DNA of 22,920 bases from positions 1 through 22,920 of the IMG/VR virus record IMGVR_UViG_3300044684_000437; one strand, written 5' to 3'. Below the pieces are notes generated by a model that had not been told where the DNA came from, ran no database searches, and worked only from the letters and a program-made list of their open reading frames with translations. Position numbers and translations under genes: made by a program. Shown one piece after another: positions 7,007 to 22,507 of the stretch. Numbering within the stretch: the stretch's first letter is position 1; every line of letters starts with the position of its first letter. Origin of the DNA: a virus.

Positions 7007-7645
7007 GTCATGCTCCTGTTGCTGGTTGGGGTCGTGGTCGCCGATTGCGCACCGCGGGCCGCAGCGACCTTTGTCGACCAGCGCGATGTGGTTTGCGATG
7101 ATTCGGGACTGCCTGCCCACGCCGGGGCGGACGGTCTCGTAGGTGGCGTCGTAGCCCGCGCTGACCTCGTTCTTGCGGTCCTGCGTGATCGCCTTGATGG
7201 CGTCGCGCCGGGTGATGATGAGGTCGGCGAGGAGGACGTCCTCGTCTCCGTCGCGGCCGGGGCGCGGGTTCACCGCGTAGCCCACCGCGAGCTCCTTGAA
7301 GTTGTCCGGCGTCACGCCCTCCGGGTAGAGGTGGCCGGGCGGGTGGCCGATCGTGACGGCGGCGCCGTAGAACGAGGCGACCGTCTCGGGGTCGAAGAGC
7401 TCGTCGGCGGTGCGCTGCACGTAGATGCGGTGGCTCCCGGGATCGGGCTGCACGGGCACCTCGCCGACGCCGTACAGCATCGTGCCGACGCGCGACACGG
7501 GCACGTCGTAGCAGACGAGGTTGCCGTTCTTCATCAGCTCGCGCCGAGGCCCCAGCCTCTCCACCGTGAGGATGGGGCGCTCGGGCGTCGGCGGCCCGCG
7601 GTCGTTCGTCTGCCAGCTGCGGTCCTGCGTGTGGGCTCGCTTCAT
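6209..7645 (-). CDS. Prohead protease (DUF2213) fused to scaffold
   Basis: A 478-residue protein. Residues 1-200 match DUF2213 prohead proteases: FYGAAVTIGHPPGHLYPE carries the likely catalytic His101, NEVSAGYDATYE carries Ser162, and IIANHIALVDKGRCG carries a third His (186). Residues 214-478 are charged and helical (about 265-330 Asp/Glu/Lys-rich, including KLETTVDSLAGTVTTLSES), as expected of a scaffold domain. The N-terminus MKRAHTQDRS resembles the RARTHD motif of capsid and cement. In this family the protease degrades scaffold and trims capsid during maturation. The gene lies between MuF and cement, as expected. An internal start is described separately. Confidence 0.87.
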   Translation of the reverse strand: MKRAHTQDRSWQTNDRGPPTPERPILTVERLGPRRELMKNGNLVCYDVPVSRVGTMLYGVGEVPVQPDPGSHRIYVQRTADELFDPETVASFYGAAVTIGHPPGHLYPEGVTPDNFKELAVGYAVNPRPGRDGDEDVLLADLIITRRDAIKAITQDRKNEVSAGYDATYETVRPGVGRQSRIIANHIALVDKGRCGPRCAIGDHDPNQQQEHDMPAANQGGDRRRIRVDDVDYEEVPSRRRVSVADEDDERDTHIHVHVPALTNDAAPKAKDKDEDDDRIAKLETTVDSLAGTVTTLSESMRSFMSSGRKTNDEETLTDEEKEAERKRLEAEARAKQGKTEDSAALAASWQELASKAEILVPGFQMPTFDAAAQRQLTVDAMCGARKKALAEFAKDDANKALVTAIVGDASVADMDCAAAAVLFNAAAAAKATANNTKATLDAAHVPQVHSLGGKMPVSIQALNSANRKFWQQQTAHA

Positions 7646-7663: not shown

Positions 7664-8410
7664 CTAGTGGTCCGGCAGGACCGGCTCGGGGAAGCAGCGG
7701 CAGTTGGGGCCGCACCCCGCGTGGTAACCGTTCGGCATGTCCGTGACGGGGGGCCTGTCCCACCGCACGTACACGCCCTCCATCTCCTTGTGCTCGGGCC
7801 GCACGTCCGCGTCGTGCGCCGTGCGCCACAGGTACCCCTGCGAGCCGACGAACTGCGCGCGGGCTTGCGTGAGCGTGACGGCGGCGCGCGAGGCCTCGGT
7901 GCGGGCTATGAGGGTCGCCTTGCTGGCGCTCACCCTCCCGGACTCGAGGATCGCCGCGGCGACCTCCTCGTGCCTCCTGCCGCCGATGCGGGCCTCGGTC
8001 ACAAGGTTGTGGACGCGCTCGGCCGCCTTGCGGGGTATGGACTGGATGAGGTCCACGTTCAGGCGCATCAGCTCCTTGTACGCGGCCCCCGTGGGGGCGT
8101 GCGCGACCTCGGCGTAGAGCGCGCGCGACATCTCGCGCGACTGCTCCTTCCACGCCAGCAGGTTGCGCCGCGAGACGTCCGCGAGCATGTAGTTGGCGAC
8201 GGACGCCGCCCAGGGCCGCAGCAGCGCCGCGTAGTCGTTCAGTATCTGGACGAGCGGCGCGGGGTCCGCGACGCGCCCGTCGGGGGCCATCCCCCGCACG
8301 AGCTTGTCCACCTCGCGCGCGACCTGGCGAAGGCGCGAGTTATACGCTGACTCTGCGGCGCGGGCGAGCGTCCACCTTAGCCTCTTGCCCGTCCTGTCCA
8401 GCATCGGCAT
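7664..8410 (-). CDS. MuF-like minor head protein (SPP1 gp7 / Mu gpF family)
   Basis: A 248-residue protein. Three family landmarks are present. ATLIARTEASRAAVTLTQAR lies at about 165-184. TAHDADVRPEHKEMEG lies at 197-212, the W.T..D..VR..H....G motif. HAGCGPNCRC lies at 230-239, the C-terminal HP..NCRC-like segment. These minor head proteins enter the procapsid with the portal and are involved in head morphogenesis or DNA ejection. The start ATG at 8410 is preceded by AAGGAGGA inside the portal gene, so the two genes overlap by 71 bases. The N-terminal 100 residues are helical and Ala/Arg-rich. The second Met (MLDRTG) is an alternative start two codons in. Confidence 0.88.
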   Translation of the reverse strand: MPMLDRTGKRLRWTLARAAESAYNSRLRQVAREVDKLVRGMAPDGRVADPAPLVQILNDYAALLRPWAASVANYMLADVSRRNLLAWKEQSREMSRALYAEVAHAPTGAAYKELMRLNVDLIQSIPRKAAERVHNLVTEARIGGRRHEEVAAAILESGRVSASKATLIARTEASRAAVTLTQARAQFVGSQGYLWRTAHDADVRPEHKEMEGVYVRWDRPPVTDMPNGYHAGCGPNCRCFPEPVLPDH

Positions 8411-9914
8411 CGTCGTCCTCCTTCGCGCCCGGCGCCCTGTAGCCCGGCTTGCCGGCGCCCTGGCCGAACTGCGCCGCGTCGAGCAGCTGCTCGGACATGG
8501 GCGGGGCGATCTCGTCGTCCGCGGCCTCGATGGCCTCCTCGGAGATGTTGGTGAAGACGCCCGTGCGCCTGCTCGACTGCTTGAGCTCCTTCATGCCGGT
8601 CTGCGTGCCGACGAGGCCCGCGTCCTTGGCGGCCTGGACCGCGGCCACCGTGTCGCTGGCGACCTTCGCCTTCTGCTCCTCGGTCAGCTCGTACAGCGGG
8701 CGGAATTTCGTCGTGAAGTCCTCCGGCGGCCTGACGCCCACGGACTGCGCGATGAGCCGGTAGAGCAGGGGCACGCCCTGCCCGAGGTCCTTGTTCTGGC
8801 GCGCGCCGATGCCGTCGTAGTAGTTGCGCCAGTCGCTCTCGCCGGTCGCCGAGAGGCCCGCGGGCGACTGGCCCAGGAGCCGCACGAGCGGCACGCCCAG
8901 CGCGCCGGACACCTGCTGCGCCAGCTGCGTGATGACGGCGTCGACGCCCGAGAAGGCGCTCGTCTGCTGCACCGCGAAATCGTCGGTGGCGTCGATGACG
9001 GTGATGCCCTCGAGCCCCTGGAACTGCCGCATCTGCTGGACGTACGACTGCAGGCCGAGGAGCATCTCGCCGCCCGCTGCGACGAGCTCGCGCAGGCCCT
9101 CGACCTTCAGCGTGCGCAGGTAGGACTTCGTGACCAGCTGGGCCGCGCCCATGCTGGCCGTGTCGAAGCCCACCATGCGGTCGTAGAATCGCTCGTACAC
9201 CGAGATGCCCCACAGGTTCTCCGTGAGGGCCTGCTGGTAGGGCAGCTCGACGCCCAGGTGGCGCAGGACGATGCGCGAGTAGTGGATCACCTCGCCGCGC
9301 AGCGCCGGGGCGTTGTCGAGGACGCGGTAGTACTTGGGCATGCCCAGGTAAGGCCCCAGCTCCGTGACCAGGTCGCCGAGCTCGGGCGTCAGCATCCAAC
9401 GGTCGAGGGCGACAAGGCCTTTGAACTGCCCCTTCCCCACGGTCTCGGGGCGCAGAGGCGTACGGAAGTCCTGCCCGTCGACCAGCGCCACGCAGACGGC
9501 GCCGCCGTAGAGGCGTCCCCACTTGATGCCGCCGTTGAGCTTGTCCCACACGGCAAGGCGCTGCGCCTCGGACTCGATCTTCTGCACGTCGGCCGTGTCC
9601 ATCTCGGACTCGACCTCTACGCCCTTGCGCGTCATGTCGTCGCCGATCACATCGACGGCGACGCCGCCGAGCCAGGAGCCGCGGTGAATCCACTCGCACA
9701 GGATGCGGTTGCGCGTGATGGGGTTGAACCCGTACGTCGCGCCCGCGAGCCCATTCGAGCCCGCCATCACGCCGATGCCCTGCATGAAGTTGACGAAGGA
9801 GTCCCGCGTAGCGGCCGAGACCGCCTTCCTCTTCCCAGGGGGCGCGGCGAGCGCGCGCTCCTGCGAGAGGGCCGAGCGCACCTGCGCCCGCACCGACACG
9901 CGCGGTTGCGCCAT
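8340..9914 (-). CDS. Portal protein, DUF1073 family
   Basis: A 524-residue protein that fits the DUF1073 portal family. It has an N-terminal TRDSFVNFMQGIGV region, then a WLGGVAVDVIGDDMTRKGVEVE segment. Further on are KWGRLYGGAVCVALVDGQD, ERFYDRMVGFDTASMGAAQL and a C-terminal third with GLSATGESDWRNYYDGI and LTEEQKAKVASDTVAAVQ. The acidic tail (KEDDDADAG) overlaps the start of the MuF gene in another frame. The portal forms the dodecameric ring at the packaging vertex. GGAGAAGCAT precedes the ATG. Some annotation pipelines label this family Acb1-like, but I see no HxT catalytic motifs, so I call it portal only. Confidence 0.9.
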   Translation of the reverse strand: MAQPRVSVRAQVRSALSQERALAAPPGKRKAVSAATRDSFVNFMQGIGVMAGSNGLAGATYGFNPITRNRILCEWIHRGSWLGGVAVDVIGDDMTRKGVEVESEMDTADVQKIESEAQRLAVWDKLNGGIKWGRLYGGAVCVALVDGQDFRTPLRPETVGKGQFKGLVALDRWMLTPELGDLVTELGPYLGMPKYYRVLDNAPALRGEVIHYSRIVLRHLGVELPYQQALTENLWGISVYERFYDRMVGFDTASMGAAQLVTKSYLRTLKVEGLRELVAAGGEMLLGLQSYVQQMRQFQGLEGITVIDATDDFAVQQTSAFSGVDAVITQLAQQVSGALGVPLVRLLGQSPAGLSATGESDWRNYYDGIGARQNKDLGQGVPLLYRLIAQSVGVRPPEDFTTKFRPLYELTEEQKAKVASDTVAAVQAAKDAGLVGTQTGMKELKQSSRRTGVFTNISEEAIEAADDEIAPPMSEQLLDAAQFGQGAGKPGYRAPGAKEDDDADAGQDGQEAKVDARPRRRVSV

Positions 9915-14933: not shown

Positions 14934-15170
14934 TCACTTCGTCACCTCGCGCTCGAGGCGCACGAACCGCACGCCTTGTTCCGCCGGCCACCAGCCGCTC
15001 TCCACGATCGCCCACCCCGAGGGGATGGCGTCGTAGAAGGCCTCGCGGTCCGCGATTGCGTGCGTGAGGAGCACGCTCTGCACCAGCTTCGACCTGACGA
15101 CCGTCGCCTTGCCCTTGACGCGCATCGTCAGCTCCAGCGCCCTCAGCTGCTCGTACTCCTTGCCCATCAT
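14934..15170 (-). CDS. Small protein coupled to terminase, function unknown
   Basis: A 78-residue protein whose ATG overlaps the terminase stop in an ATGA (15167-15170). It starts MMGKEYEQLRALELTMRVKG and has a C-terminal WAIVESGWWPAEQGVRFVRL segment that looks like a small alpha/beta fold. Translational coupling to the large terminase suggests a packaging-related or co-regulated role. I recognise no family. Confidence 0.68.
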   Translation of the reverse strand: MMGKEYEQLRALELTMRVKGKATVVRSKLVQSVLLTHAIADREAFYDAIPSGWAIVESGWWPAEQGVRFVRLEREVTK

Positions 15171-16705
15171 CCCATCCCCAGTCTGGCGCGCTCGCGCATG
15201 TGCGGCGCGTCCGCCCTAGCTATACGCGCCCAGGCGCCCATGGCACCGCCGCGGGTGATGTACCCGTCGAGCGAGTAGCGTATCGCGTCCCAGCAGTGGT
15301 TGTGCGCGTCCACCACGACGGGAAGGACGAGCGGCTGGCCCTCGGCGTCGCGCTGCTTCGGGTCGACCTTGTAGCGCCACATGTACGCCTCGGCGGCCGT
15401 GCGCTGGCACCGCGGGTGTATGACGATGCGCCGGAACCCCTTTAGGTGCGTGATGCCGTCCTCGACGCTGCCCTGCCACTTCTCCGCGGCCGAGATGTTG
15501 AAGCCCATGGCGCGCACGTGCGAGATCGTCTCGGGCCTGGCGTTGTCCGCCTTGATCGGCCAGCGCCTGGCGCCCGGCACGCCCGGGTACTCCTTGTTCG
15601 GCACGCAGTGGGACGCGCCGCCCTCGTAGAACACGTCGAAGTCGTTCAGCTCGACGTGCTGCTCGTACGCCTCGTATTCGACGTACAGGTCGTAGATGGT
15701 GCCCGACTTGTGGTGCTCGACCGGCAGCATGAACGAGCGTATCAGCGTGGACGGGTCGTCGGCGAAGCCGAAGTCCGCGCCCAGGAGGAGCCGGTCGGCC
15801 TGCTTCCACAGGTCGTCGGGGAACGCCTCCACGACGTACTTCCCGCCCAGGATGATCGCGTTGCTGCGCTTCCTGGGCTTGCCAAGCCACACGTGCTCGT
15901 AGAGGTCGGGGTTCAGCCTCCTCGCCCGCAGCATCTGCGGGTAGAGCTCCGTCTGCTCGAACCACGGGTTCTGGTCGAAGTTGACCTCGTGCACCACGGC
16001 GCGGCCCGCGTCCACGTCGCCGTTGGCGATCAGCGAGAGCGCCAGGACGTGGATGGGGTCCGTCTCCTCGATCAGGTTGTAGACCGCCCATATCTCGGAG
16101 CCGGGCTTGCGGATCGTGGGCTCGAGCGCCTCCAGGGAGGCCGAGCTCACCGACTGCGCCTCCTCGATGAAGCAGACGTCGATGTCCTCCGTCGAGCGGA
16201 TGCCCTGCTCGTTGTTGTGCATCCCCTTGAAAATGAACTCCGCGCCCACCCGGGACGAGATGCGGTTCTCCGTGACCGTGAACCAGGAGTCCAGCCCCAG
16301 GCGCGAGATCGTGTTCTTCAGGAGCTTGTGCGAGCTCTCCTTGATCGAGTTCATGTGCTCGCGCACGCACAGGACGCGAAGGGGGACCGTCGCCGCCAGC
16401 CGCACCAGCGCCTCCGCGGCGCCCCAGGACTTCACGCCGCCGCGGCCCCCTCGGTAGATCTTCCACCTGCACTTCCTGTAGTACAGGTCGGAGATGGGGT
16501 GGTTCCTGTCCAGGACGACGCTGGGCACGTCCAGCGGCTGGGGAGGGCCGTCGGGCTCCTCGTCCTCCTGGCTAGTCCGGGTCAGCGCGGCGGCGGCGAG
16601 CTCGCGCTCCCTCCTGGCCTTCCCCCTCCTGGCCTTCTCGGCCAGGACCAGGAGCAAGGCCTGCTTCGGCGGCAAGGCTCGCAAGGAGCTGGTCGAGATC
16701 GTCAT
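15167..16705 (-). CDS. terL: Terminase large subunit (PBSX/Terminase_3 type)
   Basis: A 512-residue packaging motor. The ATPase domain has the Walker A-like GGRGGVKSW (86-94), and Walker B is DVCFIEEAQ with Asp176 and Glu181-182. The nuclease domain has ADFGFADDPST with Asp311, PIKADNARPET with Asp387, and VDAHNHCWDAIRY with Asp476 and Asp483. These match the acidic metal-binding pattern of Terminase_3 C-terminal domains. The first 44 codons overlap the small subunit in another frame by 134 bases. The ATG at 16705 follows AGGGGATGAGCG. No other Met lies before the ATPase core, so the start is acceptable but not certain. Confidence 0.93.
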   Translation of the reverse strand: MTISTSSLRALPPKQALLLVLAEKARRGKARRERELAAAALTRTSQEDEEPDGPPQPLDVPSVVLDRNHPISDLYYRKCRWKIYRGGRGGVKSWGAAEALVRLAATVPLRVLCVREHMNSIKESSHKLLKNTISRLGLDSWFTVTENRISSRVGAEFIFKGMHNNEQGIRSTEDIDVCFIEEAQSVSSASLEALEPTIRKPGSEIWAVYNLIEETDPIHVLALSLIANGDVDAGRAVVHEVNFDQNPWFEQTELYPQMLRARRLNPDLYEHVWLGKPRKRSNAIILGGKYVVEAFPDDLWKQADRLLLGADFGFADDPSTLIRSFMLPVEHHKSGTIYDLYVEYEAYEQHVELNDFDVFYEGGASHCVPNKEYPGVPGARRWPIKADNARPETISHVRAMGFNISAAEKWQGSVEDGITHLKGFRRIVIHPRCQRTAAEAYMWRYKVDPKQRDAEGQPLVLPVVVDAHNHCWDAIRYSLDGYITRGGAMGAWARIARADAPHMRERARLGMG

Positions 16706-17265: not shown

Positions 17266-17496
17266 CTAGTTCCGCTGGCCGCGCCTGGCCCTCCTGGGCG
17301 CAGGCGGCTCGATCCTCGTCTCGACGGTCCTGGGCTTCCTGGGTTGGAGCTCGGCGACGTCGTGCGCCGACAGGAATCCGGGGTTGGCGAACGGCTCCCC
17401 CTGGGAGGGCGGGCGGTGCCGCTCCTGGTGCGGGTCGACCTGGTCGCCGGGGCGCCCGAGCGGGGCGCCGGTGAGCTGCTTGAGGGCTTCGTTCAC
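17266..17496 (-). CDS. Small Pro/Arg-rich protein, function unknown
   Basis: A 76-residue protein starting at GTG 17496, with AGGAG six bases upstream and a 4-base GTGA overlap with the preceding stop. The longer reading frame upstream is a shadow of the neighbour gene. The sequence MNEALKQLTGAPLGRPGDQV is followed by Pro/His-rich and basic stretches and ends RRARRGQRN. It looks largely disordered. The overlap and ribosome binding site make it a real gene, but there is no hint of function. Confidence 0.62.
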   Translation of the reverse strand: MNEALKQLTGAPLGRPGDQVDPHQERHRPPSQGEPFANPGFLSAHDVAELQPRKPRTVETRIEPPAPRRARRGQRN

Positions 17497-17879
17497 GTCG
17501 TTCTCCTGTTGTTCCTCCTTGCGAGGACCTCGGCGAGGTCGGCCAGGGAGGGCGCCGAGGGGACGCGGCAGGAGGCGTCCACGTAGTAGCGCATGTCGTC
17601 GGTGCGCGCGAGGTACCCCTCCTTCGCGTGCATGTTGGGCACCGTGCAGCTGGGGTAGGTCAGCTCCGGGGTCAGGCGCATCACGAGGTGGTGGGGCAGG
17701 GCGGTCGCCTCGTCCCGGGCCACGGGGGCCAGCGCGGCCCACACGTGCCACCTGATGGTCGTCGCGTGCATCTCGTCGTCTTCCTGCTTGGGCCTGAGGC
17801 GGGCGCAGCGCCTGGCCGCCCTGCACGAGGAGGGCAGGCCGCAGCCCTCGCACGGGAAGAACTCGACCGGGTACCGCAT
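17493..17879 (-). CDS. Cys-motif small protein, first gene of the late block
   Basis: A 128-residue protein from the ATG that follows AAGGAGGGCCGAGC. An in-frame ATG at 17984 would add 35 Pro-rich residues but has a poorer ribosome binding site. The N-terminus MRYPVEFFPCEGCGLPSSC carries a C-x2-C-x5-C group, possibly metal-binding. A second part (MHATTIRWHVWAALAPVARD) leads to YPSCTVPNMHAKEGYLARTD and DASCRVPSAPSLADLAEVLA. No known family is recognised. It is the first gene after the 0.7 kb control region and overlaps the next gene by 4 bases. Confidence 0.65.
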   Translation of the reverse strand: MRYPVEFFPCEGCGLPSSCRAARRCARLRPKQEDDEMHATTIRWHVWAALAPVARDEATALPHHLVMRLTPELTYPSCTVPNMHAKEGYLARTDDMRYYVDASCRVPSAPSLADLAEVLARRNNRRTT

Positions 17880-18149
17880 GCTCGGCCCTCCTTGGGGGTT
17901 GTACGGCCCCGCGCTCTCTGGCGTCGGCGCGGGCTCCGCCGGTCGCGGAGTTTTAGTGCTGGCCGTGCTGCGCCTCGCCGCCATGGCGCCCGCTCGTACT
18001 GGCTCAGCGTCCCAGGACCGGCTGAGACTGGTTGACGGCCCGGTGCGGCGGGGAGCGGTCGCGATTCCGCTTCAAGCACGCTTTTTCGGGAGGTTGCGTC
18101 GCTATGGCCTTGAGACGTAGGAAGAGGCACATCTTCTCGTCCATTCTGT

Positions 18150-18180
18150 GCAAAACTGCCGGGGGTGCTAGTTCCCCGGC
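18150..18180 (-). terminator. Hairpin with T-tract in the leader before the late genes
   Basis: GCCGGGG (18158-18164) pairs with CCCCGGC (18174-18180), loop 9. On the minus strand AGTTTTGC follows. It has the form of an intrinsic terminator placed about 270 bases before the first late gene. It could be the tR'-like site at which a late antiterminator acts. Confidence 0.6.
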
Positions 18181-18212
18181 CCGCGTCCCCCTGGGATCGC
18201 CGCCCGAGCCGT

Positions 18213-18285
18213 CGAGTATGCCGCCTGCGTCCCCCGCGCGCCATGCCAGCCTGCGTCGGACCTACCGCGGGAGGCGGCATACTCG
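18213..18285. repeat. 14-bp perfect inverted repeat
   Basis: CGAGTATGCCGCCT (18213-18226) and its exact reverse complement (18272-18285) flank 45 bases. Inside it, CCCGCG near 18233 and CGCGGG at 18266-18271 can extend the stem after a bulge. As RNA it would be a very stable stem-loop. As DNA it could be a protein binding or recombination site. Confidence 0.8.
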
Positions 18286-18303
18286 AACTCGCTCCGTCTC
18301 CTA

Positions 18304-18338
18304 TCTATACGCGCCGCAAAACGACCCCGGCGCCCAAG
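18304..18338 (-). promoter_or_regulatory. Candidate late promoter (weak -10 only)
   Basis: On the minus strand GGCGCGTATAGATAGG contains TATAGA at 18309-18304, four of six matches to a sigma-70 -10 box. No good -35 lies 16-18 bases upstream; the only TTG-starting hexamer (TTGGGC) is about 22 bases away. Transcription from here would start near 18297 and at once produce the 14-bp inverted repeat. An activator-dependent promoter is possible. Confidence 0.28.
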
Positions 18339-18532
18339 GAAGCCCCTGCGCGTGCTGCTCCGCGCGCGGGGGAAGAAGGGTGCGAAGCGCCGGGGGCTGG
18401 CGTCACGCCGCGGGTCCCGCGCCGGAGCCTGGCGCTCCCCTCGCGAGGAGGGCGCCGCCCCGGGGAGACTGCCGGGGGCGGACGCCCCTGCGCGTCCCCG
18501 CGGCCTGCCCGCGCCGCGCCAGCACGGCGCGG

Positions 18533-18567
18533 AAACGAAAAAGGCGCTGGGGGCAGTCCCAGCGCCT
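18533..18567 (-). terminator. Strong intrinsic terminator after the Q-like gene
   Basis: AGGCGCTGGG (18542-18551) pairs with CCCAGCGCCT (18558-18567), loop 6. On the minus strand TTTTTCGTTTCC follows. It lies about 50 bases after the stop of the Q-like gene and ends the early/middle transcription unit. A second stem (18514-18520 with 18526-18532) lies just beyond. Confidence 0.88.
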
Positions 18568-18615
18568 ATGCGAATGCCGCGTAATGTATGCGATGTCGAC
18601 GAGCTGCGCAACCCC

Positions 18616-19344
18616 CTACGGCGCGGCCCCCACGATCCCCGCGGCGTCGAATATCGCGTCGAGCTGCTCCCAGGCCGCGCCCTCCTCCTGCTGCAGGTAC
18701 TCGTACACCCAAGCCCTGTGCTTCGCGGCCGTCACGGTCGTGACGCCCCCGATCCGGGCCATGTCGACCAGGGAGAGGTCGTTGCGCGTGTAGTACTGCT
18801 CCACGATCGCGACGCGCATCTCGGGCTGGGTCGAGAGCCCGCGCTTGCCGTCCCTGGTGACCTCGCCCGCGAGCTCCAGGTGCAGGCACGTGTCGCGCAC
18901 GGCCTGCCACCACCTCGCCTGCTTGCGCCACCCCGAGCAGCACGGCGAGCCGCACGCGCACCGGTCGTACGCGACCGCGCAGCGACCGGTCAGGATGGTC
19001 TGGTGGTGCGGGTCCAGGCGCGCGAAGTGCGCCAGTATCCAGCCGGCGAGGTGCGCCCCGTCCAGGCCCCTCGGGGGCGGCGCGTGGCCCCCTCGCATGC
19101 GCCTGCGCCTCAGCTCGCCGTCCAGCACCGCGGACACGAACGCGGCCAGCTCCGGGTCCTCGTACTGGCGCAGCAGCCGCCTCCTCGCGGCCTTCGACAC
19201 CCTCCTGGGAGCCGCGGCGACCTGCGCCATCACGCGCGACATCACGGGCGCCTTCGTGTCGCCGCGGAAGTTCAGGGCGAACTCAAGGGCCTTGCGCGTG
19301 TCGTCGAAGTGCGGCGCCGGGGCCTGCTCTGCCGCGCCGGTCAT
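18616..19344 (-). CDS. Cys-rich HTH protein, candidate Q-like late regulator
   Basis: A 242-residue protein from the ATG that overlaps the previous stop in an ATGA. It has a helical, basic N-terminal half. A central RCAVAYDRCACGSPCCSGWR holds Cys129, 131, 135 and 136, a likely zinc site, and continues into WRKQARWWQAV. The C-terminal DLSLVDMARIGGVTTVTAAK (about 190-210) has the form of a helix-turn-helix. I recall this CxCxxPCCSG plus HTH layout in Burkholderia-type phages without an assigned role. Its place, last in the early/middle unit and just before a terminator and the late genes, is that of lambda Q. That makes an antiterminator or late activator my best inference. A replication or other DNA-binding protein remains possible. 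Confidence 0.62.
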   Translation of the reverse strand: MTGAAEQAPAPHFDDTRKALEFALNFRGDTKAPVMSRVMAQVAAAPRRVSKAARRRLLRQYEDPELAAFVSAVLDGELRRRRMRGGHAPPPRGLDGAHLAGWILAHFARLDPHHQTILTGRCAVAYDRCACGSPCCSGWRKQARWWQAVRDTCLHLELAGEVTRDGKRGLSTQPEMRVAIVEQYYTRNDLSLVDMARIGGVTTVTAAKHRAWVYEYLQQEEGAAWEQLDAIFDAAGIVGAAP

Positions 19345-21466: not shown

Positions 21467-22507
21467 TCAGAACTCCAGGGAGACTTCGTTCATGCCCGCG
21501 GCGACCTTGAGCGCCATGAGGGCACCGAAGGAGGCGGCGAGCGCCAGCTCGCGGTCGCCGGACACCCAGGCCGCGAGGTCGGCGTCGGCGGCCAGGCTCG
21601 TGTCCTTGAGGCGCTCGACCACGCGGCGCGACTGCTCGGCGCCCAGGAGCGAGAGGTCGCCGGCCGAGAGCGCGCCGCCCTTCACGACGCGCCCCTTCTT
21701 GGCATGCTTCTCGCGCTGCGCCTGCTTGACCTCCTTGCGGAACGCCCGGCGCTCCTCCTTGCCTCCCTTCTTCGCGGCCCTGGCCTTGCCGACGAGCTGC
21801 TTCTGCCGCTGCCTGTCGCCGCGGGCGTGCACGGCAATCTGCATGGCGTCGCCGGGGGTCACGTCGCCCGAGCGCATCGCCTCGACCAGCTCCTCGTCGC
21901 CCTCGAGGAGGGCAAGGGAGGCGTTGATGGTGTTGTCCGAGAACCCCGTGGCCTTCTCGATCTCCTTCAGAGTCATCGGCGGCATGTCCAGGTCGGGGTC
22001 GCCGTCGCGCAGGCGCTTGAAGCCCAGGGCGCGCTCGTACGGCAGGAGCGGCTTGCCGCCGTTCTCGACGAACATCTCGATGGTGGCCGTGCGGATGTCC
22101 ATGCCCTTGTCGAGGATGGTGGCGGGCACGCCGAAGGGAAAGGAGACGCCCGCCTTGCGCAGGAGGTGGATGGAGCCCGCGCGGCGGTGGCCGCGGACAA
22201 CCTCAAAGAGGTACTTGCCGCCCTCCGACAGCGGGTCGGAAGGGGCCAGGCGCAGCAGCCCGATGGGGTGCATGAGGCCCCCGGACTCCGGGTCGCGCTC
22301 GAGCTTCGCCCTGATCTGCTCGGCGAGCTCCTTGAGGTCGCCCATGTCGGTGCGGATGTTCCACCCGGGGCGCACGGCGATCGTGTCGGGGTCGACGTTC
22401 CACGCGCCGCCGGTCTTCTTCACGACGCCCGGCCCGTTGCTGCTCTTCGCGGCAGGCTTCTCGCCGACCACCGGGGCGTCCGCCTCTGCTGCCATGTCTG
22501 CTTTCAT
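21467..22507 (-). CDS. ParB/Spo0J-like protein
   Basis: A 346-residue protein from ATG 22507 (GGAG eight bases upstream). The N-terminal PGWNIRTDMGDLKELAEQIR begins a ParB/Srx domain. KYLFEVVRGHRRAGSIHLLR (about 98-117) carries the GHRR signature that in ParB binds CTP, and PYERALGFKRL follows. A helix-turn-helix is likely at about 169-190 (MTLKEIEKATGFSDNTINAS). The C-terminus has a long Lys/Arg-rich helix (about 250-275) and a final Ala-rich segment. ParB proteins act in partition or transcription regulation, and phage members often work without ParA as regulators or nucleases. No ParA or parS is visible here. Confidence 0.85.
   Translation of the reverse strand: MKADMAAEADAPVVGEKPAAKSSNGPGVVKKTGGAWNVDPDTIAVRPGWNIRTDMGDLKELAEQIRAKLERDPESGGLMHPIGLLRLAPSDPLSEGGKYLFEVVRGHRRAGSIHLLRKAGVSFPFGVPATILDKGMDIRTATIEMFVENGGKPLLPYERALGFKRLRDGDPDLDMPPMTLKEIEKATGFSDNTINASLALLEGDEELVEAMRSGDVTPGDAMQIAVHARGDRQRQKQLVGKARAAKKGGKEERRAFRKEVKQAQREKHAKKGRVVKGGALSAGDLSLLGAEQSRRVVERLKDTSLAADADLAAWVSGDRELALAASFGALMALKVAAGMNEVSLEF

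Follow-up and report, generated by a model that had tools for sequence, protein, structure and literature searches.

Antitermination is proven for AlpA of Pseudomonas aeruginosa. This protein has its binding site between the -35 and -10 elements, relies on sigma-dependent pausing and constricts the RNA exit channel (PMC7969949, PMC9371919). In the gene transfer agent of Caulobacter, GafZ acts together with GafY and Nus factors, and the study concerned reports no similarity of GafZ to Q or AlpA in sequence or structure (PMC11150451). More Q-like antiterminators of unrelated sequence should, according to a prediction by Wen et al. (PMC9371919), come to light through structure-based annotation. 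The 242-aa viral protein studied here very likely acts as a Q/AlpA-type processive antiterminator that switches on the late genes from a pR' promoter; it lies outside the known Q sequence families, though probably Q-like in action.

The window, i.e., the whole stretch of DNA that was analysed, is an IMG/VR virus record of 22,920 bases with a G+C content of 69.5%. The switch and the surrounding genes are on the - strand and the locus reads from right to left, with the following genes:

18616-19344, - strand: gene of the predicted Q-like antiterminator (ORF with ATG at 19344, 242 aa)
17493-17879, - strand: gene that opens the presumed late region, with a strong Shine-Dalgarno sequence, AAGGAGGG
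15167-16705, - strand: terminase large subunit TerL (Pfam Terminase_3, E 8e-30), in the presumed late operon
8340-9914: portal (Phage_portal_3, E 8e-91)

TerL and the portal bear out an earlier reading of this DNA, made from its letters alone (the sequence-only reading), in which packaging and head genes follow the switch. The Q-like gene shares an ATGA overlap with the preceding gene, which suggests translational coupling of the two. Further upstream of the switch a ParB-like gene is present (21467-22507; PHROG 32069, E 1e-25), as it is at a similar place in Edwardsiella phage ZHS. The window also contains a mini-ORF with a good Shine-Dalgarno sequence (ATG-AAG-TAG, 17248-17232, - strand), and similarly preceded mini-ORFs of one or two codons were observed in loci of relatives (designated by L numbers), i.e., L091 (ATG-TAG, ~7590-7599), L010 (ATG-TAG, ~7600), L012 (ATG-TGA, ~6003), and L002, the locus of ZHS (ATG-CTG-TAA, ~10358). 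These recall the bar minigenes of lambda.

The 242-aa protein consists of an N-terminal segment, a CxCxxxCC cluster (C129, C131, C135, and C136) and a C-terminal helix-turn-helix (HTH), in agreement with the Cys-rich helix-turn-helix protein recognised in the sequence-only reading. Profile searches gave no Pfam or NCBIfam match, and searches of Pfam, PHROGs, NCBIfam and PDB sequences provided no usable name; phrog_12618, which matches the Cys stretch only, was not accepted as its identity. Because lambda Q carries a zinc finger insertion (PMC9371919), it is plausible that the Cys cluster binds zinc.

Computation places the protein in a family with its own synteny, predicted fold and, in the relatives, a module of promoter, pause-like element and terminator. 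As a lone query the window protein gave no matches among viral contigs and an alignment query was required to find its relatives, which are encoded on at least 148 viral-contig stretches, 80 of which were kept, and on 31 stretches of bacterial genomes, mostly of Burkholderiales. By tblastn, a protein of Edwardsiella phage ZHS is 42% identical to the window protein, and weaker relatives occur in Bordetella, Achromobacter, Burkholderia, and Shewanella phages; the best phage match of the window's terminase is likewise the terminase of ZHS. An alignment of 55 members reveals a conserved FxxxxxAlxFAlN start, a GLDGAAQAGMI segment, the CxCxxxCC cluster followed by W, and the C-terminal HTH, in proteins of ~175-240 aa. 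No Pfam, NCBIfam or PHROG entry describes this family: none of the 55 members has an antitermination match in Pfam, and the known antitermination families of Pfam and NCBIfam, which served as the test for phage 21 Q, gave no family match. A profile of the 55 members found no AlpA chain among PDB sequences at E up to 10, the hhalign probability for lambda Q is 0.6%, and sequence homology to lambda Q, AlpA or other Q families was not detectable. In the open-access literature that was searched, no description of the family was found.

The predicted structures point to AlpA. AlphaFold (AF2) models were obtained for the window protein (pLDDT 84, pTM 0.73) and for L072, a relative of 200 aa (pLDDT 89, pTM 0.85), from largely overlapping alignments. 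A structure search identified AlpA as the only confident solved fold for both models: the only matches in the PDB to which Foldseek assigned a probability of 1.00 are the AlpA complexes 7xyb and 7xya. The Foldseek TM-scores on the AlpA target are 0.67-0.71 for the window model and 0.58-0.62 for L072. The E-values are modest, at 0.008 for L072 and at 0.02 and 0.14 for the window model, and the query-normalised TM-scores are only 0.48-0.51. By these matches both models are predicted to have the AlpA fold, which comprises an N-terminal ring segment and a C-terminal HTH. In the viral structure library the top match is annotated as 'Antitermination protein Q'.

Where tested, the genomic position of the family is the Q position of lambdoid phages, between the replication and the late genes. 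The largest downstream ORFs (62 loci) most commonly match terminases and portals of several unrelated families and the largest upstream ORFs (61 loci) O/P-like replication initiation and primosomal proteins, a tally that covers nameable ORFs only, many of the sampled ORFs being without a match, and that is not claimed for every locus. QDWS and PHB09 show the same order, i.e., replication genes, Q-like gene, terminase and portal, and in Bcep176 the Q-like gene comes after the replication genes. Among the TerL relatives fetched, most are without a Q-like gene within reach; only L118 had it.

Downstream of the gene the relatives share a module that comprises, in this order, TTGAC(A/G), a spacer of 16-17 bp, (G/C)AAAAT or a similar sequence, 6-8 bp, an TTCGATAC-type motif and a terminator ~60-100 bp past the stop codon. 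Stop codons of other long + strand ORFs from the same loci served as controls. The best sigma70 site near the stop has a mean score of 9.0 at 62 family loci vs 3.8 at 258 controls. TTGAC occurs near the stop in 42 of 62 family loci (18 of 255 controls), a terminator 20-130 nt past it in 40 of 62 (26 of 255), and promoter motif and terminator together after it in 35 of 62 (4 of 255); since the family loci are related, P values overstate the independence of these counts. The TGA stop even lies inside the TTGAC of the -35 hexamer in 23 of the 62 family loci (e.g., L072, L046, L059, L005, and L020) vs 4 of the 255 controls. Past the -10, at a distance of 8-16 nt, the relatives have a conserved motif, of which TTCGAT is an example; it is comparable to CACGAT of alpB (PMC9371919) and to AACGAT in lambda. 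The 16-17 bp spacers contain a weak dyad signal, slightly above shuffles (combined p 0.02), and with such weak statistics the dyad was not accepted as a proven binding site. Strong modules are present in, for example, L072 and L078. Further small genes intervene between the Q-like gene and the module in ZHS, L010, L091, L201, and L118. Two successive terminators, ~50-80 nt apart, were noticed after the Q-like gene in L006, L013, L020, L027, L045, L046, L049, and L050. In the ZHS-like clade the pause-like motif is immediately followed by a hairpin of 7 bp, GTGGTGG...CCGCCAC (L002:10029-10052, L201:7450-7478), at the position that the terminator hairpin takes in the window.

The corresponding elements of the window are as follows:

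18606-18611, - strand: putative -35 of pR', TTGCGC, weak; part of the best sigma70 site around the stop, with homology to TTGCGG of L201
18589-18605, - strand: 17-bp spacer, candidate Q-binding element by its position only, analogous to QBE/ABE (PMC9371919, PMC7969949)
18583-18588, - strand: putative -10 of pR', TACATT, from a model built from relatives only
18568-18576, - strand: CATTCGCAT, start region and candidate -10-like sigma-pause element, by position and similarity to relatives
18537-18567, - strand: intrinsic terminator, the putative equivalent of tR' (stem 18567-18542, then TTTTC)

In a sigma70 scan the best site, TTGCGC-N17-TACATT (18611-18583), has a poor score of 5.0, which 29% of the control stops reach; the putative promoter is thus weak by consensus and its placement rests on homology. 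Three observations place the putative pR' and tR' here. When the -10 and start region is modelled from the relatives only, TACATT-N6-CATTCGC ranks 2nd of 68,682 placements on the whole - strand; L201 carries TTGCGG, TAATAT, and GCATTCGGCTAG where the window carries TTGCGC, TACATT, and GCATTCGCATAG; and the terminator directly follows. The counterparts of CATTCGCAT at the same position are GCATTCGGCTAG in L201 and CAATTTGCTAG in the ZHS-like phages. No dyad is evident in the window's spacer. The terminator has a stem of 10 pairs and a folding z-score of about -4 vs dinucleotide shuffles, and is indeed the strong intrinsic terminator noted after the gene in the sequence-only reading. It was, however, thought to precede the switch, whereas by homology it would be tR' itself, with the promoter at 18611-18583. 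It starts only ~10 nt after the predicted transcription start, closer than in the relatives.

Between tR' and the first late gene lie ~660 nt, with four further features:

18315-18339, - strand: second hairpin resembling a terminator, with TCGTTTTGC, immediately before TATAGATAG; jointly with the next element it corresponds to the 3' end of RNA model R1
18301-18311, - strand: CGTATAGATAG element, containing the TATAGA of the sequence-only reading; recurs in relatives, without a -35
18212-18286: 15-bp perfect inverted repeat (arms 18212-18226 and 18272-18286) with a 45-nt loop
18152-18180, - strand: third hairpin (GCCGGGG...CCCCGGC stem) followed by AGTTTTGC, possible additional terminator

These features allow another reading of the locus, in which TATAGA at 18309 is the late promoter, the inverted repeat marks the transcript start, the hairpin at 18180-18152 is tR', and the terminator at 18567 ends the early operon. 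The conservation in place of TATAGATAG, of the preceding hairpin with its T-run and of the following hairpin in relatives speaks for it, as does the repeat, which is not a chance event: when the 736-nt gap was simulated 200 times with a first-order Markov model, the longest perfect repeat was 14. However, no hexamer resembling a -35 lies within a usable distance of TATAGA and a scan revealed no sigma70 consensus site there; ZHS, L010, and L091 possess both the element and a clear promoter-pause-terminator module ~200-300 nt upstream; and the homologous module was found in the window itself. We therefore reject TATAGA as the late promoter and regard this whole reading as unlikely. The element itself is real. 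TATAGATA at 18309-18302 is the sole exact match in the window (0.32 matches with at most one mismatch are expected by chance), and CGTATAGATAG recurs as the same word ~200 nt past tR' in ZHS, nearly identically in L010 and L091, and as CGTATAGTTCG in L012. The length of the 11-mer common to the window and ZHS is by itself not significant (a length of at least 11 arose in 52 of 300 simulations), so that the argument rests on position and recurrence. Because relatives with a clear upstream promoter of their own carry it in place too, TATAGA is probably part of a conserved element distinct from, and additional to, pR'. The inverted repeat, first described as one of 14 bp where a transcript would start, is in fact a perfect one of 15 bp, which could be a packaging or protein-binding site; the supposed start has to be abandoned with the promoter. 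The hairpin with TTTT at 18180-18152 is likewise present, but is only a modest terminator, which a simple terminator scan did not list.

The untranslated late leader after tR' may hold a further element, i.e., a candidate RNA of ~200 nt conserved in ZHS, L010, L091, and L201, located at:

L002:10086-10298, L010:7331-7542, L091:7317-7528, L201:7511-7722, and L200:6122-6285: candidate structured RNA

The model derived from four relatives has 48 pairs, 90% of them standard, and pairing falls to 39-57% in a slid control; 12 pairs show compensating changes among ZHS, L010, L091, and L201 vs 4.3 in shuffles. The copy in L200, which was left out of model building, was found by the covariance model at the expected place (E 2e-7). 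Of the model, the window matches only the 3' part, made up of the second hairpin with its TTTT and of CGTATAGATAG, at 11.4 bits (E 0.055 in a search of 389 kb), whereas the full model gives no match there. Folding of the window's region 18534-18320 is not better than that of shuffled sequences (z -0.9), and a structured RNA is not claimed for the window itself. Rfam searches gave nothing credible, leaving the candidate without an Rfam match, and a search for tRNA and tmRNA found none. We tentatively suggest, as a possibility on the doubtful side, that the late leader forms a second layer of control, in which a structured RNA of ~200 nt, which follows tR' and has a second terminator and CGTATAGATAG at its end, is acted on by the antiterminated polymerase or by a phage or host factor.

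The protein could also be an activator of late promoters, the terminator then merely separating early from late transcription. Its HTH would suit this role; two relatives match Sigma70_r4_2 weakly and only one relative matches RinA (TIGR01636; E 0.044, 14.0 bits, below the cut-off of 31.9). The fold that is matched, however, is that of an antiterminator, not of an activator, and the promoters of the relatives have good -35 and -10 elements with a terminator within ~100 bp in most of them, which would be needless for an activator and makes this function less likely; we consider it quite improbable. Of the two functions offered in the sequence-only reading, antiterminator or activator, the AlpA fold, the Q position and the module favour the former. 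That the protein is a DNA-binding protein of packaging, recombination or replication, adjoining the terminase genes by chance, is very improbable, for in spite of this proximity, the Cys cluster and the HTH, the gene precedes several unrelated terminase families, profile searches gave no match to such protein families, and the AlpA fold and the promoter module after the gene point to regulation.

As a Q/AlpA-type antiterminator, the protein would work as follows. RNA polymerase would start at the weak sigma70 promoter pR' (18611-18583), just past the stop codon of the gene, and pause at the -10-like sequence in the first transcribed bases; without the protein, transcription would end at the terminator at 18567-18537. 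The protein would contact the DNA between the -35 and -10 via its C-terminal HTH and transfer to the paused polymerase, where its N-terminal segment would narrow the RNA exit channel as a nozzle. The polymerase thus modified would read through 18567-18537 and later terminators into the terminase, head, and tail genes, and we infer that these late genes depend on the protein. A leader RNA of ~150 bases, proposed earlier as the target of the protein, does not fit this scheme, since in Q/AlpA systems the target is the DNA between -35 and -10 together with the paused polymerase. The core of the earlier proposal, a Q-type switch with a protein outside the known Q families, is upheld by the lack of Pfam and NCBIfam matches, the AlpA fold, the Q position and the module.

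Prophages of Burkholderiales and other Proteobacteria, for example in Cupriavidus, carry the family, as do many uncultured phages; it is unnamed in the profile libraries searched. Our results supply an annotation for a gene that tends to be labelled hypothetical, and from the module behind it the start of late transcription in these phages can be predicted. Dozens of promoter/terminator modules are, moreover, available for finding out what in the Q mechanism is universal.

The new family looks like a case of the type predicted by Wen et al. (PMC9371919). With AlpA it shares the predicted fold with a C-terminal HTH, a promoter with a candidate -10-like element and then an intrinsic terminator behind it, and the DNA site expected between -35 and -10. 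It differs in that its sequence does not match the solved chains, in its conserved CxCxxxCC cluster, and in that phage packaging genes follow it instead of a bacterial lysis operon. Lambda Q with pR' and tR' has the same order of replication genes, Q, promoter, terminator, and late genes, with the promoter just downstream of the Q gene, and lambda Q also has a Cys-rich region. However, hhalign and Pfam give no match between the two proteins, the window terminator is much closer to the start than in lambda, and packaging rather than lysis genes come first. For phage 21 Q and related families, the kind of function that we infer is the same and a short leader likewise precedes tR', but none of the 55 members of the new family, of ~175-240 aa, has a Pfam antitermination match. 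GafZ, finally, parallels the predicted antiterminator described here in that it controls a head and tail gene cluster by antitermination and has a putative site between -35 and -10 (PMC11150451).
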